A DNA stretch of 61,640 bases from a virus, in the IMG/VR virus record IMGVR_UViG_3300031524_000009, positions 1 to 61,640 of that record; one strand, given 5' to 3'. A model generated the notes under the pieces. The model did no database searches. It was not told where the DNA came from and worked only from the letters and a program-made list of their open reading frames with translations. Of this stretch, positions 1-29,171 are shown one piece after another; the stretch's first letter is position 1, and every line of letters starts with the position of its first letter. The position numbers were made by a program, and so were the translations under genes.

Positions 1-667
1 CAAAGCTCTTCCATCGATCGGGTGCGTGGGACGTGCACTGCTCAAGAACAGGGATGCAACTGCGCAAAATATCCTGGATCTCATCCAAGTAAAGCTGCCA
101 GGCGGGGATACCGCGGGCGCGGTCTGCATTCAGATACGCGTAGCGCATCGTGATCATCGACCGGTTGATGAACTGCTTATCGAAGACGTTTTGCGACAGC
201 ATGCGCGTCGTGAATTGGCGCAAAAGCTCGCTGGTCTCGATAGGCTCCTTAATACGATCCCGTGAGAAGTTTTTGGTCTGCGACCCCGAGGGGCTCACGT
301 ATAGAATGCGGATGGAAGGAACGAGCGCTGAGTAACACAGCGCGCGGTTACCTAACGCTGTCGACTTTTCAACTTGTCGTGCGCAGCATAGAAGAACGCG
401 GCGTGCGGGCGTATCGTAAAGGCGAGGAAGATGCCGTCTCCCTTTGAAAGAGAAAGGACCTGACCCCATTCCATCATCCTTTGGTAGGACGAACGCCCGC
501 GCCGTGAATTGTGACGGGCGCATCATGGGTAAGACGGGCGCAACCTTTTGAAGCGCGGTTACTTCAAGGGGCTCTTCCTCGGGTAAGACTTCGGGTGTCC
601 AGGGTTCTTCCCCATCCCACGTGTCGTCCAGATCATCGTCATCGTAGGCTAAAGCTGCGTTACCCAT
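1..667 (-). CDS. terL: Terminase large subunit, N-terminal ATPase part (3' end of gene lies outside the window)
   Basis: The frame stays open from an ATG at 667 down to base 1 (222 codons seen), so only the N-terminal part is present. A Walker A-like motif CARQVEKST lies at about residues 95-103 and a Walker B LYLDEIQDI at about 192-200, preceded by ARGIPAW; together these are the signature of large-phage terminase ATPases that drive DNA into the prohead. The usual Gly of RQxGKS is Glu here. The nuclease domain is outside the window. An in-frame TGA lies three codons upstream of the ATG, and a GAGG ribosome site sits just before it, so the start is well fixed. It is the last visible gene of the operon led by the RNA polymerase. 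The first 60 residues are acidic and proline-rich, probably flexible. Confidence 0.88.
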   Translation of the reverse strand, partial: MGNAALAYDDDDLDDTWDGEEPWTPEVLPEEEPLEVTALQKVAPVLPMMRPSQFTARAFVLPKDDGMGSGPFSFKGRRHLPRLYDTPARRVLLCCARQVEKSTALGNRALCYSALVPSIRILYVSPSGSQTKNFSRDRIKEPIETSELLRQFTTRMLSQNVFDKQFINRSMITMRYAYLNADRARGIPAWQLYLDEIQDILRSCIPVLEQCTSHAPDRWKSF

Positions 668-2411: not shown

Positions 2412-4739
2412 TTAGGAACCTTGGAAACCGAGGATCTTGAGACCCTCAATGACCTCTTCCGTCGACCGCACTGCGCGCTCGAGTGCCGACTGCGGCACGT
2501 TCGAGAGACCGCAGCGCACGGCGAAGAGCAACTCACACATCTTCGTCTGCACGTCTTCGATGTCCGGAAGGTAGCTAACAAAGGTCATGATGTTCTCGGG
2601 ATTGATGAACCCGAGGCTCAAGACCGTGTCAACCATCTGCGGATCGGGGAAGCTCGCCGCTTCTTTGAGAAGGAGCGGCTGTTTGAAACCGGCTATGGCA
2701 CCCACAATTCCAGCCGCCTTCTCGAGGGCCTGCTTCATCTGATCGCCCTTCGGAGCAACCAAGCACGCCACCTTGATCGGCTCCGGCCGGCTGAAGGCCA
2801 CCGCCGCGGCCAGCTTCTCCGCGGCGTAATTCATCTCCACCCCAAGCCCCGCGAGGAGAAAGATCGCGTCATCCAGGGACAAGAAGCTGCGCTGCTCCGT
2901 CGCGATCTTGGTCAGAGGCGTCCCCCGCAGAGTAAAGGACATTCCGTCGGAGACCACCTCAACGTGCGCCAGCTTGCTCTCGGGGTTGGCTGCCGTGGCT
3001 TCCTCACTGCTCAAGAGCGAAATGTGATCGGCGCCATCAAGGGGCAGCCACTTCCACTCCGCGGGGATCAACACCCGGCCGTTGTCCACGGGGGTCACGT
3101 CGACCAGGTTGGGCTGCACGGACAGCGTGACCTTGTCGCCCCCGAACGTCGTGCCGTTGTACACTCGGGGTTGATCGCCTTGCGTCACCGAGTCCTGCAA
3201 ATCGAAGGGCACCGTCATACGAACGCCCCCGTCGCGCTCGGTGTAAAACGTGCCGTGCTGCCCAATGGGCCCCGAAGGCAAGCTCACGTTGGCGCCCCCC
3301 GCAGGTACGCCATGAATGTCGCTCTGCACCGCGACCGTGCTGCCGTTGGTGAACAAGGCGATCGGAATCTCGGATCCATGCACATCGACCAGCTGAGGCA
3401 CCACGTACCCCAATTGCTCTTTGCCCCCGCTGTCCATGACCTTGTACATCCCGGGCTTGGTCACCACCGATGCCGTCGCGGGTGCGTCCTCCGCCGTCTT
3501 CTGCAGGTTCGTACCTAGTGTGCAGCAACCGGTCAGATCCGCCTGCATGGCCACCTTGGTCCCGAAGCTCCGCACCACGTCCCCGCGATTCATCAACGCT
3601 TCTTGCGGATCCCAGTACCGGCGGCTCGCCGTCTTTACCTTGTAGCCCTCCACGGCTTTTTGCACTTGGACCACGTCGGGCTTGAGCCACTGCTCCCACG
3701 CCGCGTGCTTCGTCTGCTCCTGCGCGGCAAGTACCAGTCGCAGCGCGTCGTAGAAACGAGAGGACGCTACCTTGATCCGAGAAAATGCGTTGGGGCCTAG
3801 GGCATTTACTTCGTTTGCGGCATGCTCCGCATCGAAACCGTCCAAGGTGGGGAGGATGGCAAGCAGCACCGAGGCTTCTTTTTTTGCATCCACTTTGACC
3901 GCAGGCACCAACGACCTCGCGGCAATCCCCGGATACTTCTTGGCCACCGCCGAATAGACCCTGGTCTTCTCCGCGGGTGAGCCGTGAGCGCCGACCATCG
4001 ACAGCGCAGCCTTCGCATGGGTCGCGTTCTCGATAGGGTACTTGCCTGTACCGCCGGGGCCTTCGCCCTTCGGGATTGCAAAGTTCTTCGGCTTGATGTG
4101 CTCGCGCGCTGATTGTGTGAGGACGTTCGCGTCCTTCTCCGCAGCGCTCAGAATGAACGCTTCGAAGGCACTGGACGCTTCGTCCGCGGCCGCGAGCTTC
4201 ATGCCCACCTTGCCAATGCCCATCCCGCCGGCCGCGTTCATCGCGATGCCGCCCCCACCAAACCCGTAGTTCTGACGGTAGGGTGGGTAGAGCTGACCAA
4301 TCATGCTCTGATCCCCCGGCGTTCGGCTGGTGACGTCAAATGCCTGGGGCCGAAAGAGCGCCTGACGCAGCCGGTTTTCCGTCAGCGGGATGGTCGCGCC
4401 GGTATCATTGATCAGCAAGTCGAAGGGGCTGAGCTTCTTTTCCCGGATGATGAAGGGGATGCGCACCGTACGGATGCCCGCCGAATCCAATTGATCCTGC
4501 GGCGTATCCATCGGGGCTTCTGTTTGGTTCTGGATCTCGACGTGCCCTAGCCCGTACCCCCGTTCCGCGTCCACGCTCGCCATGCGCACATGGGGTTGGT
4601 AATCGGTAATGTAGGGGACTTGCTTGTAGAGCTCTTGAAGAATCTGTTGCGGCCACTGATTCGGATCGTCTGGAAGATCGACCTCGCCCGCGCTTTTCTC
4701 GATGAACACTTCGGGGGCGTAGAAAAGAGGCTGCATCAT
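2412..4739 (-). CDS. Large structural-protein candidate (775 aa) with a phage DUF6582-like motif
   Basis: Residues about 215-275 carry FAIP followed by GKYPIENATHAKAAL, then HGSPAEKTRV and AVAKKYP. This is the pattern I know from a short domain (DUF6582-like) common at the ends of phage head and protease proteins; its exact role is unknown. A Gly-rich stretch (YGFGGGGIAMNAAGGMGIG) lies at about 158-177. The C-terminal 400 residues include a beta-rich part. Several short motifs of the form Lys-x-Ala with a preceding hydrophobic residue recur (KTAS, KTAE, KVAS, KEAA). The gene sits between the baseplate spike and terminase genes. It is probably a virion component; no enzyme motif is visible. 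Confidence 0.75.
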   Translation of the reverse strand: MMQPLFYAPEVFIEKSAGEVDLPDDPNQWPQQILQELYKQVPYITDYQPHVRMASVDAERGYGLGHVEIQNQTEAPMDTPQDQLDSAGIRTVRIPFIIREKKLSPFDLLINDTGATIPLTENRLRQALFRPQAFDVTSRTPGDQSMIGQLYPPYRQNYGFGGGGIAMNAAGGMGIGKVGMKLAAADEASSAFEAFILSAAEKDANVLTQSAREHIKPKNFAIPKGEGPGGTGKYPIENATHAKAALSMVGAHGSPAEKTRVYSAVAKKYPGIAARSLVPAVKVDAKKEASVLLAILPTLDGFDAEHAANEVNALGPNAFSRIKVASSRFYDALRLVLAAQEQTKHAAWEQWLKPDVVQVQKAVEGYKVKTASRRYWDPQEALMNRGDVVRSFGTKVAMQADLTGCCTLGTNLQKTAEDAPATASVVTKPGMYKVMDSGGKEQLGYVVPQLVDVHGSEIPIALFTNGSTVAVQSDIHGVPAGGANVSLPSGPIGQHGTFYTERDGGVRMTVPFDLQDSVTQGDQPRVYNGTTFGGDKVTLSVQPNLVDVTPVDNGRVLIPAEWKWLPLDGADHISLLSSEEATAANPESKLAHVEVVSDGMSFTLRGTPLTKIATEQRSFLSLDDAIFLLAGLGVEMNYAAEKLAAAVAFSRPEPIKVACLVAPKGDQMKQALEKAAGIVGAIAGFKQPLLLKEAASFPDPQMVDTVLSLGFINPENIMTFVSYLPDIEDVQTKMCELLFAVRCGLSNVPQSALERAVRSTEEVIEGLKILGFQGS

Positions 4740-4744: not shown

Positions 4745-5377
4745 CTATACCTGAAAGAGTACATCGAACGATGCTTGAACTGAAGGCGCTGCGCTTAGCA
4801 GCACGATACCAAAAACGGGATCGCTAGGCTGAATGACGTTGGTACCGTCAATAAGACCCCCGGCAAATAAGCCGTTCACCTCCGTGCCCGTGGTCGCCAA
4901 GGAATCCCCGGCGAAGGTAAACGCGAATACGGGGCCGGCGTTTAAACTGGCGGCGAGTTGCGCCGTAGCACGTAGCGCAGGGATTTTGATCGCGAGAGCC
5001 AGCTGAATAGCCAATTGCAAGCCCCCCAGCTGAATCGACAGCGTGCCCGCCAACGCGATGGAAGCGCTGAGCTGCACACCAATTTGAATTGAGGGGATAG
5101 GAAATTCGAGGGCTAGGGACAACGCCACTTGAATGTTGGCGAGCGCCATGAGCACCGCTTGAATCCCAGCGAAGGGGTTACCCACCTGAATGCTCAGGCC
5201 CACCGACATGGACAGCGTCGCCATGAGGCGCGCGCTGATGTCGAGCTGAAAGGGGCCTAGGCCCGCCGCGATGAGCGCGTCGATTTGGATGCCAAGAGGT
5301 ACCAAAAACCCAACCGCCACCGCGAGGCCCACGTTGAAGCCGCCCAACGTACCGCTTTTGAGCGCACCCAGAGCCAT
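4745..5377 (-). CDS. Hydrophobic repeat protein next to the baseplate spike (210 aa)
   Basis: The product is almost free of charged residues over its first 150 positions and consists of imperfect repeats of alternating or helical Ala/Leu/Ile/Gln segments (IQIGVQLSASIALAG, LSIQLGGLQLAIQLAL). The last 60 residues are more ordinary. It directly follows the spike gene with a 3-base gap, the position where some myophages encode small proteins that decorate or cap the spike or bind the baseplate hub. It could be an amphipathic virion protein that meets the host membrane. There is no signal peptide. The family is not recognised. Confidence 0.7.
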   Translation of the reverse strand: MALGALKSGTLGGFNVGLAVAVGFLVPLGIQIDALIAAGLGPFQLDISARLMATLSMSVGLSIQVGNPFAGIQAVLMALANIQVALSLALEFPIPSIQIGVQLSASIALAGTLSIQLGGLQLAIQLALAIKIPALRATAQLAASLNAGPVFAFTFAGDSLATTGTEVNGLFAGGLIDGTNVIQPSDPVFGIVLLSAAPSVQASFDVLFQV

Positions 5378-5380: not shown

Positions 5381-6661
5381 TTAGCCTTGCGGCCCCGGGA
5401 CCAACACCGTGCTGGATCCGTTGGTGATAAAGCCGGTGAACATCGCGCCCGCTGAGATGACACCTGGCGTCCCCGGTACGGGTGCGCTCAGGATAATAGG
5501 TACGGGCGTTGCGATAACAATGCTCACCGCTGAGCCGACGGTGGCCACGGGGGTGTCCCCTCCGTTAATGGTTACCGCGCCCTTATCCGACGTAATCTGA
5601 ACCCCAGTACTTCCCACCAACCGTAGATTTTCTGTCGCCTGCAATTGCAGTGACTTACCCGAGGTCAGCGTCATCCCCTGATCTGCCGTAATACGAAGTT
5701 GATTTTTGACGCGGATGTTGACGCTTGCTTCAGCGCGCAAGAACCCAGACCCTGACCGGTCAAAAAACATCTTCAACTTGGTCAGGTTCTCTACGCCGCT
5801 CACCGGCGAACCCGCTTCCACGTTGAAGCCGGCCGGTGCGATCACGAACTCAGCAACGATAGTGTCGGCCCCTACACCCATCGCCGTGTTGTTCGAGGTC
5901 TCGCCTGCATCCCCCGAAGGTTCTGGAACAGGCTGATGCACTTGCCCAACAGCAATGCGTAGATCCGCCTGGGCATCGTTGGCAAACAACCGGAACGTCT
6001 GACGAAACTCGGTCTGAGGATTATCGTCGGTGTAGCTTGTGGACAGTCCCCAGTTAATGGAACCCCCAGTATTGTGATGCTCGTAGTTTTGACTGATGTC
6101 CGTAATGATATTGCCGAGCGGTATGTAAATGCGCTGGGCGAGCTCCGTCGACCCCACCTGGAGAACGCCCCCGCGATGCATAATCACGAAGTTGCCGTCC
6201 CGCCCTTGCCATATCATGTCCCCGGGCTTACCCCGTGCACGACCTCCAGAGAAAACCGCACCCTGGTTAGTACCTGTGGTATCCGCTGCGTCTTCTGCCG
6301 CAGCGCTCGAGGAGGGATCCTCGGGGGTCTCCATAGGCATGATGAAAGCCAGCACAAAAGGCGGGGGCCCGTCACTGGGTAAACATACCACGCACTTTGC
6401 GTTCACTTCGGGAACAACCGACCAACCTTCTCCGCGATTAGGATGAAGGTAAGGGCCCGCAACCTGAATGTTCGGGTAGAACTTCTGGTCAAACTGAGAG
6501 CGTACATCGACGGTCCAGGTGGCCAAATTAAAGTCTAAGACGCGAGATTCGTGAATAAACGCGGGCGAAGCCCCGTGGGGCTGCGTCCACGAACTGCGCA
6601 TGCTGGTACGCTCGAGCGGCGTACGCGCATCCGTATGGGGATCGGTGATGTAGCGGCCCAT
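5381..6661 (-). CDS. Baseplate central spike / puncturing protein (gpV or gp5-like)
   Basis: The 426-residue product has the layout of contractile-tail spikes. An N-terminal OB-like part (about residues 35-115, with VDVRSQFDQKFYPNIQVAGP and VVPEVNAKCVVCLPSDG) is followed by a disordered Ser/Ala linker near 118-130. A C-terminal region of short beta repeats (VNIRVKNQLRITADQGMTLTSGKSLQLQA) matches the beta-helix of membrane-piercing needles. It would form a trimer at the tail tip. The start overlaps the stop of the RNA polymerase gene by one base (TGATG), so the two are translationally linked. The protein ends in a Gly/Pro-rich tip. It suggests a myovirus-like tail. Confidence 0.82.
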   Translation of the reverse strand: MGRYITDPHTDARTPLERTSMRSSWTQPHGASPAFIHESRVLDFNLATWTVDVRSQFDQKFYPNIQVAGPYLHPNRGEGWSVVPEVNAKCVVCLPSDGPPPFVLAFIMPMETPEDPSSSAAAEDAADTTGTNQGAVFSGGRARGKPGDMIWQGRDGNFVIMHRGGVLQVGSTELAQRIYIPLGNIITDISQNYEHHNTGGSINWGLSTSYTDDNPQTEFRQTFRLFANDAQADLRIAVGQVHQPVPEPSGDAGETSNNTAMGVGADTIVAEFVIAPAGFNVEAGSPVSGVENLTKLKMFFDRSGSGFLRAEASVNIRVKNQLRITADQGMTLTSGKSLQLQATENLRLVGSTGVQITSDKGAVTINGGDTPVATVGSAVSIVIATPVPIILSAPVPGTPGVISAGAMFTGFITNGSSTVLVPGPQG

Positions 6662-9600
6662 CAGTATGCGTGGGACGCGACGTCTTTAAGGTGCGGCTTG
6701 TCGAAGACGTTGACGTTGGTCATTCCAAACTCGGCTCCGTAAGCCATGCCTGCTACCGGGTTGTTCCCGTGCAGATCAGAGGAAGCCCCGAGGGCGGCAC
6801 TCGCGGGCAGTCCCTGCGCTGGATCCCGCAAGCGCTCATGGTTCAACTTGGCCATCCAATCCTCTTGTACCTCAAGGGGCATCACGCTGATACCTTTCAT
6901 AATCGGCGTGTGCTGAATCGGCTGAAGACCCTGCGCTATAAGCTGTCGGTTGGCTTCTTGCACTTTGGCACGCGACGCGTACTGTCCCTTGATCATGGTT
7001 TCATGATCCCCGGGGTTAATGACACGGGTCAGGTCGCTAAGGGCGCGCACCACAGTCTCCGTGTTCTGACGGCGAACGCCCTCGCGACCGTAAATGTCAT
7101 GCAGCTCCGTCACCAAGTGGTTTTGCACTTGAGCCATACTTCCCGTGACGGCGTACAAGTCATGGGGATTGACATAGGTGCGCGCCGGATCCGTCAAAGG
7201 GTCTCCCGCGCGCACCTTCATACCGACTTGCAACCCCGTCCACTTCGTGCCCCCGGGTAAGGTGGACTCGGTCTGCCCAGGGAGCGGTTTGAAGAGCGGG
7301 TTACCCTGATCATCGTTGGCGATGTGGTGCTTGACGCCACCAATCCACGCCACGTGACCCGTGGGATCTTCTTCAATTTTCTCAACCACACCATCCTTCG
7401 CAGCCAAACGCGCCGCGTTCGGGATTTCCTTGGGCAGAGACGTCAACTGCTGGACGCGAATAAAATCGTTGACCAAGTTTGCGCCACGCTCCGCTACACC
7501 GCCTCCATGAAAAGCTTTGAGCGTGAGCTGAGTAGCGCGTTCCCCAAGAGCTTGCGTAGCCAAAATCCCAACGTTCGTTCCCAAGGAATAATGCTGCCCA
7601 TCGGGCGCCAGGCCCGCGCACTTCTGACAAACGCCGGTTCCGTTGTCGCACTTCAATGTTGAGCGGACCAACAAAGTTGCGTTCTTATCCGCGGCTTTGA
7701 TTGTGGACGCTACCTGCGGCGTAATCACCGTGTCCTTCGCGTACGTCACACCCCCAATGGTGTGTTCCTGTGCCAGAGTACGGTCAAAGATATCCTGGGA
7801 GTGGATAGGCAAGTGCAGCCCGTTATCCGTACCGCAATCATGCTTCGTAACCTGTAGGCCCATCGTTACGTTGATGAGCTTCTTCGTAAAGTACCCCGGT
7901 TCGCGCACCTCTTGAACTTTGAGTACTGATCCTCGGCGCGCACCGGCCATCTGCGTCCAGTAGGAGCTCACGTCCAACCCCTCGGAGTAACTCTTCGTTA
8001 CCGGCGTCGAAATCACACGGTTCTGGCTGTCCACCATGAGCATCGGGGCCAGGCGAAGCTGCCGGTATTGAATAGGCCCCGGCTTCACACCCGCTTGCTG
8101 CATCAGGTACAGGTTATTGGGATTGGCCGTCATCTTCGTATCATGCTCTTTCAGCATCTGGTCCGTTGCATCGTGCCAGGTGTTGACCACATGCTGTTCT
8201 CGCTCGGCGTCACTAAGATCCGTGCGCGCATTGATCTGTTCCACCTTTTTAGTTGCAGCCGCCACGATAGGATCCCGCGTGGCCTTGTCCGGCGTAAAGT
8301 CGTTCAAGCTCAAGGAATGCGTACCCATAGGCAAGTACTGAACGTTGTCCTTGGGGTGTTCCCCATCTTTCTCGACAGCCGCCGCCGTTCCCTGCGTTGC
8401 CGGGTTAGGGATCTTGAGAACACCGAAGGCGGCGTCGTACCCGAGGCGCATCAGCTTGACCGCCGAATCCGCGAAAGCGGCCTTGTGTTCCTTGGCGATC
8501 TGCGTGTACACGCGATCCGTACCCTTTTTATTCAAGGACAGATTCATGTTGTGCAACATGTCGTGCTGCATCGATTCCGGAACGGCGGACGCCAACAAGA
8601 TACGCCCGGCCGTCGTGGGCTTCCCATCGACCGTTGCGGTTTCGGTCACCGTCAGCTTTCCCGCTTGTGCCGCTTTGAGTAAGGCGGCATGGGAGTCGAA
8701 TGTCTTTCCGCTATCCCCTGTAACACGCGAGAGTTTGAACAAGCCCAGGCTGGCTTCCAGACTCGGCTGGTAAATAACCTTGCCGCTGGCTTCGTTGTAT
8801 ACATTTCGGGAAGGCACCATGCCCTTGGCTTCTTCAACAGCGTCGCGCCCGATGGGTACGTAGAGTGCCATGGTGTCGCCGTCGAAATCGGCCGTGAAGC
8901 CCCCGGTAGTTAAGGGGTGAATCTGAATGGCTTTCCCCGGGACGCGCTGCGGCCAAAAAGCTTGCACGCCGTGCTTGTGCAGTACCGGATCGCGCTTGAG
9001 CAGCACGGGGCGCTCCGCCATCACCTTATCGAGCGCCTGGTACACCGCGGGATCTTTCTTCCCCGGTTCAGACAAAAGCGCATGCGCTTCCCGTGGTGTA
9101 CTAGCGGCTCCGATTTCTTGCAGCTTGTTCACTACAAACGGGCGGAACAAGTCGAGCGCCTTCTTTTCCGGTAGGCCCACCTGGTCAAGCCCCATGGATG
9201 CATCTGGCGTGATGGTGGCGCGCATGGTCATGTCTTGACGACGCGATAAGAGCGTATTCTGGAAGTAACCTTCTTTGGGTGCAGAGCCCGCGATTTGAAG
9301 GAGCACTCCCTTGCCTTGCTTGCCCCGGGTCGCCCAATCTTCCCCCACCCCCATGAGCGCTTTCACGCTGTCGTACAAATTGAAGCGATCCTCCTTCTTG
9401 TCATGGTCGCTCAAGTACTTGTAGTTGGGGGATTGCATTGCGGACGCGAGCTGCCCAGCGCGCGTGTACAAGCTGTTCAGATCCGCTTCGTGTACGTTAC
9501 CGTTCGGCAAAAAACTTGCGGGCCGCATGATGGGTGGGATCACGGGCAGGTTTTCGAGAACGTAGGCGTCCTTTGGATGAATCCCTGCCTTGTCCAAAGT

Positions 9601-12600
9601 GGACAGGTAGCGCACCTGCTTCGAAAGCTGATCAAGTTTTGGAGTAACATCTCGATGCGCGAGGTTCGCGGGTACCTTGAGCTTGTCGAGAGCGTCCTTA
9701 GCTTTCTTGAGCTCCTCTTTTACGTCGAGCTCACCCAGCATATGCGCGATGGCGGCACCCCCCGCTTTAGAGCCCTCTGTTCCCAAGGGAACAACCTTGC
9801 CGTCCTTAACCGCGGCCTCACCGTTAACGATGTCCGCGTACTGCCCCTCTTTAAGGCCAAGAACACGCTGGATCGCATGCTCGAATACGGGGTTGGGGAC
9901 GGGCTCCGGAAGAACAATGTGCGACCAGTTCTGCCCCCCATGTCCTCCCGTAATCGCGGGGTCGAAGACGCCGCCTTTACGCGCGACGGGCTCATCCCCT
10001 GCTTTACCCTTCTTCGAAATGACGCTGTAGCCCGGATTGGGTAACGCCCCCGCGCTTTGCGCGAGAATCTGTTGATTGGTGAGGGGAGTCAACTGAAGTG
10101 TATGCCCGCGCTTCGTGACGTTGATACCCGCAGCCGTCAGCATGTCCTCGAACTTTTGGAACGCGAAGGTCTTCTTCGGAGGGGGTGGTGTTTCCCCCGT
10201 TTGAATGGCACGCCACACTTCATTGTGAAGGCTGTCCCAACGCTCTTTTCGATCCGCACCCTCACTCTTCCAAGTCTGCATCTCCCGGATATTGTGCTTC
10301 GCACCGTGCGCGAGCATCCCGTACAATCCCAGGTTACCCATGGACTGCCCGCCCGTCTTACCCCCTTGCGCGGGAATGAGCGTGTCCGCATCATAATGCT
10401 CTGGTTCGGCACCCTCAAGAGGCATACCAGAGCGCACGCTCACCTTCTTATCAATTTGAAAGTTCAACTTCAGAAGGTGCTGAGGACCTACCAAAGCTTT
10501 ACCGAGGGATTGCCCACTCACGGGGTCAATTACTTCTTCGGTATCCGTAAGCCCGTGTTCTTTGAGCGCCTTCTTCACACGATCGAGTTGGTCTACACCG
10601 TGCTCGAAGTTGTTGACGATGTAGGTCTGCCCCGTCTTCTCTGCAATCTTACCGGCCGCCGTTTCCAAGACCTGACCCATGTTCATGCGCCCGGGAACGC
10701 CGCTAGGATTCAAGACGACTTCAATTGGACGCCCGTCCGCTGTGTGCGGCATCTCTTTGTCGGGAAGGATAGTGGTGATGACCCCCTTGTTCCCGTGACG
10801 CCCCGAGTTGCCCGACCAAACAGCTTTACCGTTTCGGCGAACGTAGACAACGTGCCCGGGAACACGGACGCAGTACACCGGCTTGGTGTAGTTCTCGACG
10901 AAGTATTCTTCTTGAGCACGCTGCTTCTTTACGTGGCCGTTATTAACCTGAGGCTCCAGCTTCGTTGTAACGATGCGCACCTCGTAGGAACGCGCACACC
11001 ACGAGGGCTTACCTTTGATCGTTTGCCACCCTTCCTCGGCGTGAATACGGACGTTACCGGCGTAGCCCACGTGCAGAGCCAAACGCTGAACATCATCGGC
11101 TAGACGTTTTGACGAGGTAAAGTACGCCACAGGACGCCCCGTCATCATTGAAGAACTATTCCCCCACATCAACCACTTAAAGAGAATGCAGAGGCTGTCC
11201 CGCGAAAAACTGAAGATGTGCTCCGGGATGTACTTGACGCGTGCACGCCCAAGAACACGAAAGTGCTCAAGCCATTGCTTGGAATGGATGGTAACGCGGG
11301 AGCAGGTCGCGCCGTTCGTACGACTGAAGGCGATGTTCGCCTCGGTTAGCGCACGGCACAGTTCTTCGAATTGCGGTCCCGTTGCTTTGTCAATGGCGAT
11401 GCCGTAGTCCCCCGGCTGATCAAACGTGTGCCCGTTAGACACGTAGGCCCCCAAGAGCATGCAGTACACCGAGACGGGCAACCGTACTTCGGGCAACATC
11501 CGAGAACCGTTACCGTACTGACCGGCACGAACGCACAGAGCGGGGAAGGCAATGTACTCCGGGTCATGCCCTTGCCAGAGCCCACTCTTGGCGTAGCGAA
11601 TGCGACGACCAAAAAGCGTAGCCGCCGGCGTCAACAAAAAGTCGGAGGCCCCCCGCTCCTTGACAAACATGTCGTGCTTATCGGTAACGAGTAAGTCGAC
11701 CTGCCGGCTTTTGATGCGGTACATACGCCCGCCGGTTGGGTAAGCAAAAACCGCATCGGGACTTTGATAAACAATGTGCCCGTCAACACGAGAGCAGACT
11801 TCGTCGGCACACGTTACATCCGCCACTGGAAGCCACCCGCGCGCGGTAAGCATCTCCGTTTCTTCGTCGTAACACATTTTATCGCCTACTTGCATAGGCT
11901 CTACGGTGCGCACATGTACGGTGACATTACCCTCTTCATCTCGATGAATGCCCACCACTTCACCGGGATGCTCACTCTTCCACGTCAAGCTGGAGTCCAG
12001 CGTTTGACTGCTTAGACTCTTACGAATCTTGCTCAGAGAGTACGACCCCTTGGAGTCAAACGGGCGGGATGCCACCACCAGCGGATCGCCCGTACGCACG
12101 GTTTGACCAACGCGTACGACCCCTGCGTCATCCAGGTGTTCTAGCTGCTGCGTCTCGAAGGATGTTGGGTGCAACGCCTTGTACTTCGCGAGGCCCGTAA
12201 TGGCATCAGGCCCCAACGTAATCGACGGCTTATGCATGTGCTCACTCGCCATTTTGGCGGCGGCGGTCTGGCTAATAGCGATGCCGTCTTCGAAGTTGTG
12301 TCCCTTAAAAGGAATGTAGGCGACCAGCAAGTTCTTTCCGAGTGCCAACTGACCATTGCGCGTGAAGTTGTTATCGGCCAGAAGCTGCCCCGGTGTAACC
12401 GCATCCCCCTCCTTTACAGCCGGCGTACTATGAAGAACTGCCTTTGGATCATTGAGGGGAAAGTTGTTGTAGATGGTGACGTGGTGGTCCTTACCCTCCT
12501 TATCCTGCACGGTGATCGCGTCGGCCGTGACCTTTGTCACCGTACCCGCCGTAGGCGCGATGTGGGCAGACTGCCGTCCCATGAATTCTTCAAAGGTACG

Positions 12601-14208
12601 CACACCCGTCGCCCGCCCTGTTCCCGATTGGACTAGGGGAGCGTCCCGATCGTGCAGGCTGATCGCCTGCTCGATATGATGGGTGGCGTAGCTCGCGCGG
12701 TTACCTGAATTGTTTCCTAGAAAAGGAATCAAGTTCGAAGTCATGCTGAAAAGCTGACTTGGGCTTCGCATCACGTAGTCCGCGGAAGAAGCGTCGGCCT
12801 CTACCAGCTCGTTGCCCTTCTGCGACACCATCACGCGCTTACCCACGGGGATGGGCGTGCTCTTATTCCACGTTACCTGGTCGGGCATCATCACCACGGA
12901 CTTGTGGTACGTCACAGGATCAATGTGGTCCATCTGCTGCGTGCGCAGGTTGTACACCGGGATGAGAGGCGTGTTCCCGCGTTTAATGACACCCATCGGA
13001 AGGTGCAAAGTTACCCCAGTTTTGGACCCTTCGGGGGTATGTATGGAATCCAAAAACCCGATTTGACTAGGGTTTATGAGCTTTGCCGACTCACTGATGG
13101 CGTTGTCGCTCTGGATTCCCCCGGGCCCCATGATGGTCGTTTGAAAGCTCGAAGTCAGCATCTCGACGGGGTTGACCTGATCGGCCGTACGCGCCAGCGC
13201 GTTCTCGGTGAATGTAGCTTTAACCGGCCTGCTGAACATGTTGCCGTGAATCACCTGGCGGATGCTGGTGGCGGTATTGATCTTACGTGCCGTGCGCGCT
13301 TGGAGCGCTTTCTTCGTCTTCCAGTCGGTCAGGCCCTTCTTGGCGAAGTCGGCCACCGTGTGCAAATCCTTGAAGACGAGGCTGTCTCGCTCATCCTCAG
13401 GAATCTCGCCGCGTTGCACGCCAATCATCTTGGTCGTAACGTCGTGCAATAGATTCCCGTTCACGTGGTCATAGGGCTTCCCAAGCGTTATCTGCGTCAC
13501 CTCGGGGCGTATCTTCGAACCCTCCATCGTATCGATGAAGTGCTGCCGCGCTTCTTCGGTGCTCGTCGGTGCACGCTTCTTGTCAGCTTTGTAGAAGCGC
13601 TCAAGCGCCGTACCCGCTGCGCGGGCGCCTCGGTTCGCCGCCAAGACCTCTTTCCCCCAGGATGCTTGAAGCGTGTCGTCGTCGACACCGAGCTCTTTCA
13701 TGAGGGGGTAGACGGGGATGTTCTTTGAGTCCCCGCGTATCATGGAAAAAACCTTGGTCTCTGGATCCAACGTGATGTCGAAGGGGCGCTTTCCCTGCAC
13801 GTTGAACTGAGACTTCAGCTCCCCGTCTTCTTTACGGCGCGTGTACACGCCTGGCTTAAGGCGCCACTGGTTATCCACCTGGTATTCCCGCCCATCAACG
13901 ATGTAGGCGTGCCGCTGGGTCATGTACGGCAAGTCCGCCAGCTGAATGCTCTTTCGATCGAGGACCTCTCCCGTTTGATTGTTCTTCAGAGCCAGCGCCC
14001 CAAAGACCGGTACCGTCCAGGAGCGCCCCTCGACTTTGGCCTTGTGTTGCTCCGTTAGATCATTGAAATCCCGTGCGTGCTCACGCACGTCGACGCCCTC
14101 GAGATGGATGCTCTGCTTTGACCCCGTGATGGGGAAGTGCGCTTGCAACCCCTCGATGACGTTCTGCTTCAAGTCGGCGAACGCTTCCTTGGGATTGAGG
14201 TAGGCCAT
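6661..14208 (-). CDS. Single-chain multisubunit-type RNA polymerase, beta and beta-prime fused, interrupted by an intein
   Basis: This 2515-residue protein transcribes DNA and joins the two catalytic subunits of bacterial RNA polymerase in one chain. The beta part ends with the GDKM/GRHGNKG active-site loop (split by an intein at residues 779-1134), VLNPSGVPGRMNMGQVLE and a HGAKHNIREMQT tail. The beta-prime part begins near GGVFDP and carries LPVIPPIMRP, the metal-binding DFDGD at 1774-1778, the bridge-helix GARRG region, a zinc site (C2125, C2187, C2194, C2197) and the trigger-loop LTLKAFHGGG. The N-terminal zinc ribbon of beta-prime is not seen. Without the intein it has about 2159 residues, clearly shorter than bacterial beta plus beta-prime. 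It leads an operon with spike and terminase genes, which suggests packaging in the virion. No sigma, alpha or omega partner is visible here. Confidence 0.95.
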   Translation of the reverse strand: MAYLNPKEAFADLKQNVIEGLQAHFPITGSKQSIHLEGVDVREHARDFNDLTEQHKAKVEGRSWTVPVFGALALKNNQTGEVLDRKSIQLADLPYMTQRHAYIVDGREYQVDNQWRLKPGVYTRRKEDGELKSQFNVQGKRPFDITLDPETKVFSMIRGDSKNIPVYPLMKELGVDDDTLQASWGKEVLAANRGARAAGTALERFYKADKKRAPTSTEEARQHFIDTMEGSKIRPEVTQITLGKPYDHVNGNLLHDVTTKMIGVQRGEIPEDERDSLVFKDLHTVADFAKKGLTDWKTKKALQARTARKINTATSIRQVIHGNMFSRPVKATFTENALARTADQVNPVEMLTSSFQTTIMGPGGIQSDNAISESAKLINPSQIGFLDSIHTPEGSKTGVTLHLPMGVIKRGNTPLIPVYNLRTQQMDHIDPVTYHKSVVMMPDQVTWNKSTPIPVGKRVMVSQKGNELVEADASSADYVMRSPSQLFSMTSNLIPFLGNNSGNRASYATHHIEQAISLHDRDAPLVQSGTGRATGVRTFEEFMGRQSAHIAPTAGTVTKVTADAITVQDKEGKDHHVTIYNNFPLNDPKAVLHSTPAVKEGDAVTPGQLLADNNFTRNGQLALGKNLLVAYIPFKGHNFEDGIAISQTAAAKMASEHMHKPSITLGPDAITGLAKYKALHPTSFETQQLEHLDDAGVVRVGQTVRTGDPLVVASRPFDSKGSYSLSKIRKSLSSQTLDSSLTWKSEHPGEVVGIHRDEEGNVTVHVRTVEPMQVGDKMCYDEETEMLTARGWLPVADVTCADEVCSRVDGHIVYQSPDAVFAYPTGGRMYRIKSRQVDLLVTDKHDMFVKERGASDFLLTPAATLFGRRIRYAKSGLWQGHDPEYIAFPALCVRAGQYGNGSRMLPEVRLPVSVYCMLLGAYVSNGHTFDQPGDYGIAIDKATGPQFEELCRALTEANIAFSRTNGATCSRVTIHSKQWLEHFRVLGRARVKYIPEHIFSFSRDSLCILFKWLMWGNSSSMMTGRPVAYFTSSKRLADDVQRLALHVGYAGNVRIHAEEGWQTIKGKPSWCARSYEVRIVTTKLEPQVNNGHVKKQRAQEEYFVENYTKPVYCVRVPGHVVYVRRNGKAVWSGNSGRHGNKGVITTILPDKEMPHTADGRPIEVVLNPSGVPGRMNMGQVLETAAGKIAEKTGQTYIVNNFEHGVDQLDRVKKALKEHGLTDTEEVIDPVSGQSLGKALVGPQHLLKLNFQIDKKVSVRSGMPLEGAEPEHYDADTLIPAQGGKTGGQSMGNLGLYGMLAHGAKHNIREMQTWKSEGADRKERWDSLHNEVWRAIQTGETPPPPKKTFAFQKFEDMLTAAGINVTKRGHTLQLTPLTNQQILAQSAGALPNPGYSVISKKGKAGDEPVARKGGVFDPAITGGHGGQNWSHIVLPEPVPNPVFEHAIQRVLGLKEGQYADIVNGEAAVKDGKVVPLGTEGSKAGGAAIAHMLGELDVKEELKKAKDALDKLKVPANLAHRDVTPKLDQLSKQVRYLSTLDKAGIHPKDAYVLENLPVIPPIMRPASFLPNGNVHEADLNSLYTRAGQLASAMQSPNYKYLSDHDKKEDRFNLYDSVKALMGVGEDWATRGKQGKGVLLQIAGSAPKEGYFQNTLLSRRQDMTMRATITPDASMGLDQVGLPEKKALDLFRPFVVNKLQEIGAASTPREAHALLSEPGKKDPAVYQALDKVMAERPVLLKRDPVLHKHGVQAFWPQRVPGKAIQIHPLTTGGFTADFDGDTMALYVPIGRDAVEEAKGMVPSRNVYNEASGKVIYQPSLEASLGLFKLSRVTGDSGKTFDSHAALLKAAQAGKLTVTETATVDGKPTTAGRILLASAVPESMQHDMLHNMNLSLNKKGTDRVYTQIAKEHKAAFADSAVKLMRLGYDAAFGVLKIPNPATQGTAAAVEKDGEHPKDNVQYLPMGTHSLSLNDFTPDKATRDPIVAAATKKVEQINARTDLSDAEREQHVVNTWHDATDQMLKEHDTKMTANPNNLYLMQQAGVKPGPIQYRQLRLAPMLMVDSQNRVISTPVTKSYSEGLDVSSYWTQMAGARRGSVLKVQEVREPGYFTKKLINVTMGLQVTKHDCGTDNGLHLPIHSQDIFDRTLAQEHTIGGVTYAKDTVITPQVASTIKAADKNATLLVRSTLKCDNGTGVCQKCAGLAPDGQHYSLGTNVGILATQALGERATQLTLKAFHGGGVAERGANLVNDFIRVQQLTSLPKEIPNAARLAAKDGVVEKIEEDPTGHVAWIGGVKHHIANDDQGNPLFKPLPGQTESTLPGGTKWTGLQVGMKVRAGDPLTDPARTYVNPHDLYAVTGSMAQVQNHLVTELHDIYGREGVRRQNTETVVRALSDLTRVINPGDHETMIKGQYASRAKVQEANRQLIAQGLQPIQHTPIMKGISVMPLEVQEDWMAKLNHERLRDPAQGLPASAALGASSDLHGNNPVAGMAYGAEFGMTNVNVFDKPHLKDVASHAY
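10807..11874 (-). other. Intein in the RNA polymerase, with a degenerate LAGLIDADG endonuclease domain
   Basis: A 356-residue insertion interrupts the conserved beta loop GDKM/(S)GRHGNKG. It begins with Cys779, has the block B motif LLVTDKH, and ends with VWSGN before Ser1135, all standard splicing features; the penultimate residue is Gly rather than His, as in some other phage inteins. The middle resembles a homing endonuclease, but the two LAGLIDADG-like helices read LLGAYVSNG and LFKWLMWGNS, with Asn where the catalytic acid should be. Splicing should therefore still work while DNA cleavage is probably lost. Confidence 0.9.
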
Positions 14209-14277
14209 GGCCGCCTAGCGTACCGCGAGGAGGTTCGCTCCTACAAGAAACGCAGTTTCGCAGGGATAACAATCACG
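14209..14277. promoter_or_regulatory. Divergent intergenic region between the RNA polymerase operon and the MoxR/VWA operon
   Basis: This 69-base gap must hold the start signals for both directions if the two units are transcribed separately. It contains a palindrome GAAAC-GCA-GTTTC at 14247-14259, which looks like an operator or promoter element, and directly after it GCAGGGATAACAA (from 14260), which resembles GCAGGCATAAGAG (26088-26100) in the other divergent gap. No clear sigma-70 -35/-10 pair is visible. The small AGGAG/CTCCT hairpin at about 14230 may only be chance. Confidence 0.35.
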
Positions 14278-14436
14278 ATGAGAAAGCAAACCCCCAAGAA
14301 AGAAACACCGCCGATACCCCCGGAAACGTCACAGCTCTCCCAGGACGTTGCGGAGCTCTACATGACCTTCGACGAAGGAGAACCCGACAGCGAAGAACCC
14401 CCAACTGTACCGAAGAAAGGAAGCAACGCTGCATGA
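14278..14436 (+). CDS. Small acidic/proline-rich protein (52 aa)
   Basis: This short product starts MRKQTPKKE, is basic at the N-terminus and then acidic and Pro-rich (DEGEPDSEEPP), and is likely disordered. I chose the ATG at 14278 because it is the first start after the divergent gap; an earlier in-frame ATG at 14137 would run through the start of the RNA polymerase gene on the other strand. Its stop overlaps the next start as ATGA. The function is unknown. As first gene of its operon it may be made in quantity. Confidence 0.6.
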   Translation: MRKQTPKKETPPIPPETSQLSQDVAELYMTFDEGEPDSEEPPTVPKKGSNAA

Positions 14437-14621
14437 AACAGGGAGAGGTCCCCCTCTTCCTATTAGCCGCGGTGGTCGGCGTTCTCCAGGGCATTGCCTG
14501 GTGGCTCGCAGACCACAGTGGTTTTTTACCCCAAGAGGAGGCTCGTCGTGCCGCTAACAAAAGAGTTCGAAGTCATTCCCGGCACCCGTCTATTAACATC
14601 ACTATTGGGCCTGTGGGGTAG
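14433..14621 (+). CDS. Small membrane protein (62 aa)
   Basis: The product has one clear hydrophobic segment at about residues 7-26 (VPLFLLAAVVGVLQGIAWWL), then a charged C-terminus, so it is probably a single-pass inner-membrane protein. The start overlaps the preceding stop by four bases and has an AAAGGAAG ribosome site. Its 3' part overlaps the next gene by 74 bases, and the strong ribosome site of that gene lies inside this one. The last 25 residues may therefore be constrained by two frames. The function is unknown. Confidence 0.6.
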   Translation: MKQGEVPLFLLAAVVGVLQGIAWWLADHSGFLPQEEARRAANKRVRSHSRHPSINITIGPVG

Positions 14622-15159
14622 AACCTTCCAAGACCCCATCATGCCGCAGCGCCGCTGGACCGTTGAGAACACGCTGTGCCCTGTACTCGAAGAGCGCACC
14701 ACGCTTCTTACGCGCTCTGTGCGCAGCAAAGACCCCCTGCGCCTGCGCGTGGTTGATCAATATGGAATCGTGTCTTTCATCGGGCAGTTCGACTTCGAAT
14801 TACTCTGCGGGGATGCAAAACCGGGGGACATCAATCCTTGGACACAAGAAGAACGCTACGAAATCGGAGATAGGCGCCGTGGGTGGGTAGGGCTGCATGC
14901 CTACCCAGACGACGTTGAAGACGATCTCTTTCTGCGTGAGCTTGAACTACGCCAACAAAATGACTATCGCGTATCTGACTTGTTGCTTCATGGTTTTGAT
15001 CTCCCACGTTACTTGCACACGGGGGAGCGCGTCGATGAACAATTCCTCGATACCTATTTGGGGGATTTCGACCCCTTAGGGTGCCCCCGCGACTTGAGCC
15101 TCGAAGCGCTCAGTAAACGCTGGCTGCACATTCAACGGGAGGTAATGACATGGCAATGA
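14548..15159 (+). CDS. Hypothetical protein (203 aa), GTG start
   Basis: Not recognised. I placed the start at GTG 14548 because a strong GAGGAGG site lies just before it; the earlier in-frame ATG at 14494 has no such site. The product looks globular, with a hydrophobic N-terminal half (LLTSLLGLWG) and an acidic C-terminal half with many Asp, Leu and Tyr (DDVEDDLFLRELELRQQNDY). It overlaps the next start by 10 bases. Position upstream of the MoxR/VWA pair may mean it works with them, but this is only neighbourhood evidence. Confidence 0.75.
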   Translation: MPLTKEFEVIPGTRLLTSLLGLWGRTFQDPIMPQRRWTVENTLCPVLEERTTLLTRSVRSKDPLRLRVVDQYGIVSFIGQFDFELLCGDAKPGDINPWTQEERYEIGDRRRGWVGLHAYPDDVEDDLFLRELELRQQNDYRVSDLLLHGFDLPRYLHTGERVDEQFLDTYLGDFDPLGCPRDLSLEALSKRWLHIQREVMTWQ

Positions 15160-16027: not shown

Positions 16028-16036
16028 GAGATCCGT

Positions 16037-18835: not shown

Positions 18836-18840
18836 GAACC

Positions 18841-18864: not shown

Positions 18865-18874
18865 CGTGTTTCTT

Positions 18875-19207: not shown

Positions 19208-19209
19208 AG

Positions 19210-22200
19210 CTAGATCAACGCCTGCATCCGCCGTGGGGGCAATGCTTCGGGCAACGGACGCATGTCCACGCCCCCCGTTTCCGAGCCCCCCTGAGCGTCG
19301 CCCAGCATGACGGCGTCGCCTGCGGGGGCGGCGCTCTGTTGTTCTTTACTGATGAGTTCAGTCACCAAATCGGCCAGGTCTTGACTCTGCGCCGCCAGAG
19401 CGTTGAGCGCCATCTCTTGCATGTCTGGATCAAGCTGCGCGATCTGTTTGGCGTAGCCAGTGGCCAGCTGAACCAAGTCGACGGGCATCTTCTCGTTCCC
19501 GGCGGACGACCCCAAGTCCTGATCGATACTAAGGGAGCTCTGCGCGCCGGCTGGCACGCTCGAAGAGTACCCGCGCGCAGGCGCAGGCCCAGGCAACATG
19601 GGGACGGGGGGTGGCTGTGCTGCTTGTTGCGCTTGCTGCGCGTTCAGGGCGCCATCGGGCCCCCCGGGCTCTCCCGGTGCCAAAGGTTGCTGCTGCGCTT
19701 GCTGCATCGTTTGCTGCGCCTTGGCTTGCATCTTCATCATGATGACCTGGCTCTCGCCTTGAATCTCGGCCATCGCGAGCTGTTGCTTCTTCACCGCCGC
19801 CAAGCGCCTGGCGCTCTCGCGGATCATGATGTCGTTCTCATCTTCAATATCGAGGTCGGCGTCCGCCAGTAGCGTGGTGTCGCTGATCTTGTTCGCTTGG
19901 TTCAGCTGGAACAAGTAGCTCTTACGTTGCATGTCGTCGGCCATCTTGAACGGCTTGAGCCGTACATTGACCTTGGGCCACCCCATGAAATGGGAGACGA
20001 GCTGCATGATCCAATTGACCATCTGCCGCTGTCGGCCGATGAAGCTCAAGAACGTGTTCTCGAGCATGCGCATGGACACGTTGCTGCCAGCCCAGGACAA
20101 GCCGCCTTGCAAAAACTCCCGGGGCACACCCATGCCCATCATGATCTGCTCGCCTAGCATTTGCATTTCTTGACTCATCAAGAGCGCTTTGCCATCCCCA
20201 CCAATGGTCTGATTACCCAGGGGTAGGGGCATGATCGGGATGTAGTTCGTGTTAACTGAGGCCATGCCCCACAAGCAGAACGTGCCGTGCGTTTCCGTGT
20301 CGTCTTCGAGGGTAACGACGGGACCACAGGTCATCTGGAAACCGATCACCTCCTTGGCTTCTACCTCCCGGAGCTCCTCGATGCGATGCCACACGTAGCC
20401 GTCCTTAAAGAGCCCGATGTTGCAGTGAACTACGTGTGGGAGCGGCTCACCGCGTAGCCAAGCGTCAAAACGCAGGGCCATGCCGCCGTGAAGCGATATC
20501 TTGTACGAACCGCTGGACACGCCCGTCTTCCCGTTGATGCAGTAGGCTTCCGGTTCTTGACGTGTAAGACCCGGGATGAACCCATAGGCGAGAAGAAGAT
20601 TGCGAACGTCGGCAGCGAGCTGTCGGCTGGCTGTAATCGCGTCACGCTTCTCCGTTTTGTGGCCCTCGTGGTAACAACCGTCGCCGTCGAAGTAGCCGTG
20701 AAGAAGTGAAGCGACGCGCCGCTCCCCGGCGTGCTTCAACTCGTCTGCCACGCGCTTCCTGACGGATGTACCCTCGCACAGGCTATGGAAAAACTGGGCG
20801 GCTACTGTGCTTGAGTAGACACGCTGGATGCCCTGTTCACTCTTTTCCGCGGTAAACCCTTCGGTTCCAAAGTTCTTCAGGAAGAACGCATCGAGGCGCG
20901 CCACGAATTCCGCCCCGTCCCTGTGCAGCGAGAAAAGAACCTGCTTCGGCGTGACGTTCCCCTCGGCCAGGTACAACCCAGAGACCCAGCACAGCTCTTC
21001 GTCAAAGGCGATGTAACGGGTAACACGACGGGGTACGCGCTGCTCACGGATCGCATTCTGCGCGGTCTTGTACTGGTTGACCGACCAACCCTTTTCCGAG
21101 AGCAATGCTTGTCGATCTGTAGCTTCTGCGCCCGACGCCAAGTGCTCGTACGCTTCGGGAACACCCGCGTCTCGATAGTCTACGTAGACCCAGTCGTTGG
21201 TCACTGCATTGTCCACGAACTCTGCGAGATCAAGTGTACTCGCTTCCGACGCGGGATACTTCGGTACGGGGTACCCGATGTAGTCCCCCACGCGCAGGTC
21301 CTTCACGCGGATGGGCTTAGTCTCACCTCCAAGTTTGTGCCCGTTGCCATTGTTGAACTTCCGTCGTGCAATGAACGGGTGGCCTTCTGACACGCAGGGC
21401 ACAGCACCGTGCAAACCGCGTACAACAACTTGGTACGCGCGCTCGCCGTCACGTAGGGGGCGGCGCCATACTTTCTCAACAGTAGACAAGAACCCTGTGT
21501 GGTCACGGAGACGATCACCCTTCTTCACGCTCCCCGCTTGTACAACCCCAGCCTCAGCTTCCACCCAAGACTCTGGCGTCACACAGTCCTGCCTCCAACG
21601 CGCGAGCTCCATCGCAACTTGGTCACGCCAATCGAGAAGATTGATTGTCGTGAATGGATCGGTAGTTCCGCTAGCCGCTTGGGGAAACAAAATGCGTAGG
21701 GGAACAATATGCTCAAGCAGAAGCGCTTCCTGCGCCTTCTTCATGATCTGCAAGTAGAACGCATCTTTGAGAACGGGCAGGATAAGCGGGATACCCCAGC
21801 CGCGATCTTGGAACGCCAGCGTTGGCCGCTTCATTACGAAAAGGTTGGCCTTGCTGAAAACGACCCCCTTCTCTTGGCGAATTGCCTGAAGAAAGATTTG
21901 GGGCATGCCCTCGACGATGTCCTTTTTTCCCAGGGTAACGTCGGCGCGAATGGGCGCGGGCAGCGTATAGAAGTACGTGCACTCGCCCGTGATGTCGTTG
22001 TAGCTGACTTCGATGTCTTCCACGCTCCAGCGCACTGGACGAATAGAGCTGGCGTCGCGGTAATACCAATCCTTCGGAGTTGCTGCACCCGTCTGCCCGC
22101 ACTTGGGGCACGACAAACGAAACTCGTGGCTCGTGTACAGCCAATACTCACGGATCTTGCGCGCCTGTTCACTGAAGCCGCAGGATGTACACGTCAGGTA

Positions 22201-22608
22201 TTTCTGAAAGGGGAAGGAAAGACTGACCGCCGACGTGCCGTAGCACTGGTAGTCCAAGCCGCACTCAATCTGAAACGATCGCATGCGGATGGTTTCATTA
22301 AAGTACTCGCTCCACCGTCGTACAACTTCGGGATCTTCGTGGTCCACGACTACGTCTGTCACCGGATATTCCGCCAACTTAACAATGATGGCGTTGATGA
22401 GCGGGTTGGTCAGGAAGTAGTACCGGCAGAACTTGAAAAGCTGCTTAACCGTGGTCGGCAAGTACGTGTGCGCGACATCAAAGAAAGGGCTCGGGTAATT
22501 GACCCCTTGCACGTTGCCGCCCTGAATACGGCCGCGGGTCATGCCCCCTTGAAAGCGCCCAGGGCTCGTGGGGGAGCCCATCGCAAAGTTACCGAAGGAG
22601 AAGCTCAT
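19210..22608 (-). CDS. Portal protein interrupted by an intein
   Basis: The portal forms the ring through which DNA enters and leaves the head. Family signatures are FFLTNPLINAI-like sequence near residue 65, LQIMKKAQEALLLEHIVPLRILFPQ near 290-315, and after the intein NYIPIMPLPLG, IGGDGKALL and GVPREFLQGG. The intein covers residues 342-786; the spliced protein has about 687 residues. A zinc ribbon (C140, C143, C167, C170) is inserted in the N-terminal part. The C-terminal 180 residues are Gln/Ala/Pro-rich and probably disordered, ending with a short helical domain. The start overlaps the upstream stop as ATGA. Confidence 0.92.
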   Translation of the reverse strand: MSFSFGNFAMGSPTSPGRFQGGMTRGRIQGGNVQGVNYPSPFFDVAHTYLPTTVKQLFKFCRYYFLTNPLINAIIVKLAEYPVTDVVVDHEDPEVVRRWSEYFNETIRMRSFQIECGLDYQCYGTSAVSLSFPFQKYLTCTSCGFSEQARKIREYWLYTSHEFRLSCPKCGQTGAATPKDWYYRDASSIRPVRWSVEDIEVSYNDITGECTYFYTLPAPIRADVTLGKKDIVEGMPQIFLQAIRQEKGVVFSKANLFVMKRPTLAFQDRGWGIPLILPVLKDAFYLQIMKKAQEALLLEHIVPLRILFPQAASGTTDPFTTINLLDWRDQVAMELARWRQDCVTPESWVEAEAGVVQAGSVKKGDRLRDHTGFLSTVEKVWRRPLRDGERAYQVVVRGLHGAVPCVSEGHPFIARRKFNNGNGHKLGGETKPIRVKDLRVGDYIGYPVPKYPASEASTLDLAEFVDNAVTNDWVYVDYRDAGVPEAYEHLASGAEATDRQALLSEKGWSVNQYKTAQNAIREQRVPRRVTRYIAFDEELCWVSGLYLAEGNVTPKQVLFSLHRDGAEFVARLDAFFLKNFGTEGFTAEKSEQGIQRVYSSTVAAQFFHSLCEGTSVRKRVADELKHAGERRVASLLHGYFDGDGCYHEGHKTEKRDAITASRQLAADVRNLLLAYGFIPGLTRQEPEAYCINGKTGVSSGSYKISLHGGMALRFDAWLRGEPLPHVVHCNIGLFKDGYVWHRIEELREVEAKEVIGFQMTCGPVVTLEDDTETHGTFCLWGMASVNTNYIPIMPLPLGNQTIGGDGKALLMSQEMQMLGEQIMMGMGVPREFLQGGLSWAGSNVSMRMLENTFLSFIGRQRQMVNWIMQLVSHFMGWPKVNVRLKPFKMADDMQRKSYLFQLNQANKISDTTLLADADLDIEDENDIMIRESARRLAAVKKQQLAMAEIQGESQVIMMKMQAKAQQTMQQAQQQPLAPGEPGGPDGALNAQQAQQAAQPPPVPMLPGPAPARGYSSSVPAGAQSSLSIDQDLGSSAGNEKMPVDLVQLATGYAKQIAQLDPDMQEMALNALAAQSQDLADLVTELISKEQQSAAPAGDAVMLGDAQGGSETGGVDMRPLPEALPPRRMQALI
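20251..21585 (-). other. Intein in the portal protein with an intact-looking LAGLIDADG homing endonuclease
   Basis: A 445-residue insertion starts with Cys342 after MELARWRQD and ends with GMASVN before Thr787, where the portal sequence TNYIPIMPLP resumes. A block B-like motif lies near VSEGHPFI. Two LAGLIDADG helices are present, SGLYLAEGN and LHGYFDGDG, both with the acidic residue kept, so the endonuclease can be active and the element mobile. The penultimate residue is Val instead of His, and the +1 residue is Thr. Splicing would restore a portal of normal length. Confidence 0.9.
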
Positions 22609-24585: not shown

Positions 24586-24599
24586 GTATCGGCCTTACC

Positions 24600-29168: not shown

Positions 29169-29171
29169 TTC

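Follow-up and report, generated by a model that had tools for sequence, protein, structure and literature searches.

The window analysed here, a 61,640-nucleotide stretch (positions 1 to 61,640 of IMG/VR record IMGVR_UViG_3300031524_000009), carries on its minus strand a single ATG-initiated open reading frame of 2,515 codons without an internal stop. Pfam and PHROG profiles place RNA polymerase (RNAP) beta domains in its first half and beta-prime domains in its second (RNA_pol_Rpb2_6, 1.6e-56; Rpb1_2, 1.1e-20; Rpb1_5, 7.6e-19; Rpb2_3, 5.1e-8). An intein fills the active-site loop between GDKM and SGRHGNKG, and intein-free relatives run straight through this site. We aligned the spliced chain with Escherichia coli RpoB plus RpoC and found 27.3% identity over 2,037 aligned positions. 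The catalytic aspartates (D460/462/464), both active-site lysines (K1065 and K1073), the trigger-loop histidine (H936) and beta-prime zinc site 2 (C814, C888, C895 and C898) are kept, which places the protein among the multisubunit-type (two-barrel) DNA-dependent RNAPs. Zinc site 1 (C70, C72, C85 and C88) and several long E. coli stretches are deleted. DFDGD, FHGGG and the intein ends were re-read at the coordinates given below.

Features of the window around the fused RNA polymerase gene (positions are those of the window)
Coordinates	Strand	Feature	Remarks
6661..14208	-	Fused beta/beta-prime RNAP gene	2515 aa before intein splicing, 2159 aa after
10807..11874	-	Intein in the beta active-site loop GDKM/GRHGNKG	Residues 779-1134 (356 aa)
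10102..14208	-	Beta-like part (with intein)	Flap present as a short hairpin without flap-tip helix
6664..10101	-	Beta-prime-like part	Joined to beta at about spliced residue 1013/1014 with no added domain; clamp-helix segment kept in length
8875..8889	-	Catalytic DFDGD	
7618..7836	-	Beta-prime zinc site 2	Four Cys kept
7498..7512	-	Trigger-loop FHGGG	
14217..14246	-	Element TTG-N21-TACGCT (= TTGNNN-N18-TACGCT)	8 nt before the RNAP ATG; pattern found in 12 of 47 non-redundant RNAP upstream regions (shuffle mean 0.2, max 2)
14263..14272	+	Early-strand promoter-like motif GGGATAACAA	Divergent from RNAP
5381..6661	-	Spike gene, next in operon	DUF2345 match below cut-off; family profile hits (1e-7) a D69 gene that lies two genes before its PAAR gene
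4745..5377	-	Conserved unknown gene of the operon	
2412..4739	-	Conserved unknown gene of the operon	775 aa
1385..2320	-	Conserved unknown gene of the operon	
2..667	-	Terminase large subunit (TerL), N-terminal part	Cut by the window end
19210..22608	-	Portal gene, upstream of RNAP	Carries its own LAGLIDADG intein (about residues 342-785)

The original observation of a fused polymerase at the head of a spike–terminase operon is therefore confirmed. Its statements that one of the two bacterial zinc sites is present and that the protein is several hundred residues shorter than bacterial enzymes (2,159 against 2,749 residues in E. coli) are right, although part of the difference is due to inserts of the E. 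coli enzyme. That the chain stays close to bacterial enzymes holds in similarity: the best Protein Data Bank (PDB) hits are bacterial beta (5.6e-129) and beta-prime (8e-171), and the next group for beta is the archaeal 36ro_B (1.4e-41) and eukaryotic RPB2 (4e-37). However, in a 33-row tree (SH-aLRT supports) the phage enzymes form one branch of their own (100) and lie in none of the bacterial groups sampled. This tree included 17 bacteria but no archaea, eukaryotes or mReC sequences, and one of its branches, L046 (L numbers denote our sequences of polymerase loci and phage genome pieces), is very long; recent capture of the gene from one bacterial group is not supported.

The flap arm (G-x-V to GDK) is 25–26 residues in 60 of 62 phage sequences (2 were not parsed), whereas in 79 bacterial sequences (the best matches of one genome scan plus E. 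coli) it is 36–38 in 65, longer in 13 and not parsed in 1. Four HMMER alignments to solved bacterial enzymes show the gap at the tip, and an AlphaFold2 model of the first 1,200 residues of the relative L007 (pLDDT 76, pTM 0.62) has a plain hairpin at this position; that model matches bacterial RpoB best.

The window is a fragment. It matches positions 58653–120293 of a 167,481-bp IMG/VR record (IMGVR_UViG_3300031788_000002; here G002, G numbers denoting genome records) at 99.997%. The ends of this record overlap by 230 bp at 99.6% and cut a hydrolase-like gene, so it is in effect a closed genome, although IMG/VR classes it as linear, and statements about absence can be made for this virus within the reach of each profile. 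Portal, RNAP, spike, TerL, capsid and sigma genes lie on one strand and DNA polymerase on the other. A second RNAP set, named beforehand as an observation that would count against a virion enzyme, was looked for: PF00623 finds one polymerase gene in each of 33 records (two-piece hits lie in one frame) and phrog_2987 finds one in each of 17, plus one weak extra hit (0.022) in G016. A search for T7-type enzymes (PF00940) was blank in 33 of 33 records, but its control was also silent, so this type is not excluded, and YonO and crAss types were outside the search. Alpha (PF01193) is over cut-off in 0 of 33 records, with one weak hit below it (control, 13 of 14), and omega (PF01192) in 0 of 17, with two weak hits below it (control, 14 of 14).

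We identified 73 related loci in viral contigs, a set chosen by peptides of this protein, limited in number and thus biased towards close kin. Of these, 60 hold a complete single chain (5 of them identical to that of the window), 2 are split (L045 and L046) and 11 are cut short or broken. The original expectation that most phage multisubunit RNAPs are split and that fused ones are very diverged therefore does not fit this lineage, in which single-chain fusion is the rule. Cultured relatives, Salmonella phage Arash and Vibrio phages D69, D148 and D181, match at about 31% identity; in Arash and D69 the chain is cut after the catalytic region, so that beta plus the beta-prime N-part are one chain and the beta-prime C-part is another. 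In the tree the fused enzymes form one branch (100) and the split ones another (96). Seven relatives (L015, L022, L027, L041, L053, L067 and L072) carry inserts of intein size at other active-site points of the polymerase (after DFDGD, near GDK, after KGIVT and near residue 390); in the virus of the window two core genes, those for RNAP and portal, hold inteins.

The original prediction also stated that no sigma or alpha partner is seen and that promoter recognition must therefore differ. This is true of the window only, and the inference is wrong as stated: a divergent sigma70-family gene lies on the polymerase strand outside the window, so we reject the reading that sigma has been lost in favour of a new mode of recognition. 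Arash has two annotated sigma genes, gp10 and gp196. A single-sequence search with gp10 hits 18 of 21 records, Arash itself among them, and a family profile hits 12 of a partly overlapping 21. Together, 25 of 27 records of at least 115 kb have the gene (G024 only as a piece at its edge), in 25 of 25 cases on the strand of the polymerase, compared with 0 of 7 shorter records, the window among them. Two large records (171 and 134 kb) show no gp10-type sigma; those missing it at full size are G005 and G022. The profile was built partly from records that it then searched (W01, W02 and G002), but these had been found with gp10 alone. Scans with single sigma sequences found few relatives. In G002 the gene starts 68.7 kb after the polymerase start, counted downstream round the closed genome. 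It lies downstream of the hydrolase-like gene gp8: one small gene away in Arash, directly in D69, and about 4.7 kb away with several genes between in the virus of the window.

The sigma family covers regions 2, 3 and a region-4-like helix-turn-helix (HTH). Against PDB its profile finds 63 sequences, of which the 60 shown are all sigma factors (best 1.9e-17, with the best match spanning regions 2 to 4). We reject the reading that sigma lacks region 4 together with the flap tip, because the alignment shows the region-4-like HTH. The copy in the virus of the window (G002:7291-8151) is below every Pfam sigma cut-off alone and so is easily missed, but was found with Arash Gp10 at 3.4e-11. Its AlphaFold2 model (pLDDT 76, pTM 0.43) matches mostly sigma factors in Foldseek, with low TM (0.2–0.36); the first two rows are integrative complex models with ribosomal-protein/polymerase titles. 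A different sigma region-2 gene is over cut-off in 7 of 33 records, Arash, D69 and G022 among them; in Arash this is gp196.

Published mass spectrometry of Arash particles (PMC10585845) lists 116 proteins, of which the polymerase homologue Gp206 is the most detected (3,516 spectra); the beta-prime C-part Gp216 (1,210 spectra) is among the top five, the capsid has 1,333 spectra and sigma Gp10 has 467, whereas gp196 is not in the table. We normalised 114 of the 116 rows by gene length (two have no annotated length). In unique peptides per 100 amino acids, sigma ranks 1st (10.3), capsid 2nd (9.8), Gp206 5th (8.4), the helicase Gp217 8th and Gp216 14th (6.6), whereas ribonucleotide reductase, UDG, ligase and primase rank 95th, 110th, 112th and 114th. 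Spectra per 100 amino acids are 231, 200 and 200 for Gp206, Gp216 and Gp10, close to 1:1:1, although spectral counts are a rough measure and by this value the three rank only 12, 14 and 15; several small proteins with few peptides score higher. The helicase gene (Arash gp217, L075:31136-32554) lies beside the beta-prime C-part and has about the same length-normalised signal as the polymerase; none of the families of the window virus that we profiled hit it.

The authors of that study offer both early transcription and carry-over as readings, and with a reductase and a primase in the table carry-over is likely for some proteins. It is thus possible, although we consider it unlikely, that the polymerase works mid or late in infection as a non-virion enzyme, that its presence in particles is carry-over or that of a structural bystander, and that host RNAP transcribes the early genes. 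The location of the gene among structural genes is consistent with this reading; the contrast between polymerase and sigma, near the top in unique peptides per unit length, and replication enzymes, at the bottom, argues against it. Because particle data exist only for Arash, packaging might also be a property of the split Arash/D69 branch only, with the fused enzyme remaining in the cell. We regard this as very unlikely: although the two branches are separate in the tree, the portal–RNAP order, sigma downstream of the hydrolase homologue, RNAP and sigma on one strand, and the early motif are found in both.

Promoter-like motifs bear on the same question. Arash and D69 share tG[G/T]TATAAGnAAnnTG (expectation maximisation, EM; log-likelihood 127 and 136 against 53–64 for shuffles). 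Arash has 29 G[GT]TATAAG against 3.0 expected from shuffles, 27 of them on the strand opposite RNAP (100001–110125 not scanned), and D69 has 28 against 16.8, a mild excess, with 24 opposite. One of the only two such motifs found on the RNAP strand of Arash (L085:11588) stands right before gp9–gp10 (sigma), as if sigma could also be made early; no such site is among the hits listed for the window's virus. In the clade of the window a blind 16-wide EM search gave no clear motif in G002 or G026. A pattern obtained by reading RNAP upstream regions, GGNATAA[CG]AA, occurs 7 times against 1.5 in the virus of the window (6 opposite RNAP; one is a site from which the pattern came), 9 against 1.0 in G012 (9 opposite), 10 against 1.3 in G016 (8) and 8 against 1.7 in G026 (7), but 0 against 1.2 in G029, where a shorter form gives 14 against 7.3 (12 opposite). 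Of 47 non-redundant RNAP upstream regions, 19 have a broader form pointing away from RNAP, 0 have one pointing towards it and 28 have neither (shuffle means, 0.6 and 0.1); as the patterns were chosen after these regions were first read, this count is not independent for the regions read. The Arash motif GGTATAAG resembles a host extended -10, as expected if host RNAP served the early genes. However, the motif has an extension (often A-N3-TG) and is shared by phages named for Vibrio and Salmonella and by phages of unknown hosts; in the virus of the window GGGATAACAA is a poor sigma70 box, and host-type sigma70 promoters are not in excess in window 13500–33400 (3 found, 6.1 expected).

Our preferred explanation, held with moderate confidence, is that the gene encodes the only recognisable RNAP core of a ~167-kb tailed phage, an enzyme without a phage-encoded alpha, which is made with the structural genes and packaged together with the gp10-family sigma as a virion holoenzyme. 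On infection this holoenzyme would enter with the DNA and start transcription at early-strand promoters of the type GGNATAA[G/C]AA, often followed by N3-TG; polymerase and sigma would be made again late and packaged. The fused chain, its conservation, the single recognisable RNAP per genome, the sigma gene and the strand-biased motif rest on direct evidence, as does, from published data in Arash, the presence of polymerase and sigma in particle preparations. By contrast, binding of sigma to this core, injection of the pair, initiation at GGNATAAGAA sites, and similar behaviour of the window's own virus, a metagenome record, are inferred; packaging is read across from a split homologue. The original interpretation is thus partly supported: a virion RNAP is supported by homology, and a late protein fits the portal–RNAP–TerL context and the missing early motif on its strand, but is inferred from these alone.

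Phage sigma factors are usually thought to serve the host core, and reviews describe those of RNAP-less jumbo phages as redirecting host RNAP (PMC7598289, PMC13282480). The gp10-family sigma might do likewise while the phage core uses another initiation factor. In bacteria, region 4 of sigma grips the flap tip, which is lost here, and the beta-prime clamp helices anchor sigma; of their E. coli sigma-contact residues R275, E295 and A302, none is kept as such (L, D and S). Nevertheless, the clamp-helix segment is kept in length, sigma and core give near-equal signal in Arash particles, and sigma goes with this polymerase in 25 of 27 large records, which makes this alternative improbable.

Phage virion RNAPs, mReC polymerases and the Arash proteome have been described previously. 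In the sections consulted, the Arash study reports polymerase and sigma in particles but not the fusion, the lineage, a sigma–core pairing or the promoters. Homologues of sigma, portal and TerL, RNAP and sigma on one strand, and a related motif on the other are found in Arash and D69. The mReC group of RNAP-encoding Caudovirales (Weinheimer and Aylward 2020, PMC7481178) likewise has beta and beta-prime that are close enough to cellular enzymes to align; in mReC they form their own branch, and the enzymes studied here lie apart from the 17 bacteria sampled. The mReC capsids, however, are PF07068 and their Pfam-matched TerL is PF03237. Here the capsid has no Pfam hit at 0.1 (phrog_2522, major head protein) and TerL is PF05876 (Arash TerL hits PF05876 and PF03237, both just over cut-off), so we do not assign the phage to mReC, although the 97 contigs of that study may or may not include members of this lineage. 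In its main text ‘sigma’ does not occur and ‘fused’ stands once, for crAssphage. The phiKZ and AR9 enzymes are also alpha-less and phage-encoded, with one set packaged, but these phages have two polymerases, each split into at least four or five chains, and no sigma-sequence homologue; phiKZ Gp68 is a structural look-alike of sigma and AR9 gp226 is an unrelated stand-in (PMC7598289, PMC13282480). Here we found one polymerase, in one chain, and a factor with sigma70 sequence similarity. The crAss-like, YonO and P23-45 RNAPs are single chains, and those of P23-45 and crAss-like phages are virion enzymes, but they are highly diverged from cellular beta/beta-prime, whereas this one aligns end to end. 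The naturally fused rpoBC of Helicobacter and Wolbachia are cellular enzymes with alpha and omega.

Reviews state that jumbo phages with their own multisubunit polymerase lack sigma and alpha homologues, and that phages with sigma factors use the host core; this lineage would break that division, with its own core and its own sigma, both packaged. Literature searches, which reached few subscription journals, listed no paper that joins a fused polymerase with a packaged sigma, and searches for packaged sigma in phage, and for Arash with virion RNAP and Vibrio phage, listed nothing. A broader reading, about as likely as not but slightly on the doubtful side, is that a whole lineage, known from dozens of metagenome contigs and from cultured Salmonella and Vibrio phages, packages a self-sufficient bacterial-style holoenzyme: one polymerase without phage alpha (one chain in most members seen) with its own sigma70-family factor. 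With the flap tip lost yet a region-4-like domain kept, sigma would have to dock in a new way, and where a second, unpackaged sigma exists the phage would switch promoter class by changing sigma rather than by making a second polymerase; the virus of the window has one recognisable sigma. A one-chain polymerase that still resembles bacterial RNAP offers a natural test of what alpha, zinc site 1 and the flap tip are for, and with a promoter-like motif and a sigma gene named, injected transcription can be tested directly in cultured members (Arash and D69).

On the late side the evidence is weaker. The TACGCT-like box lies 7–27 nt before the RNAP start codon in the 12 upstream regions that have it, which would give a very short or leaderless mRNA, but the element is not enriched genome-wide in the virus of the window (2 against 1.3) and we claim no late promoter consensus for it. 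In D69 (L146–L155), late-strand TAAAATAT occurs 19 times against 9.4, with 17 on the RNAP strand, and is not in excess in the other genomes, apart from two hits in one Arash piece. This second motif, TAAAATATA, sits mostly on the structural strand (17 of 19 hits), with one copy before the portal–RNAP operon, and may be a late promoter read by another sigma. Several short, unannotated Staphylococcus, Listeria and Salmonella ‘phage’ records with rpoB/rpoC-like matches may be host contamination. Two PHROG families labelled ‘unknown function’, 25354 and 24349, match this polymerase best and are most likely beta-prime and beta.
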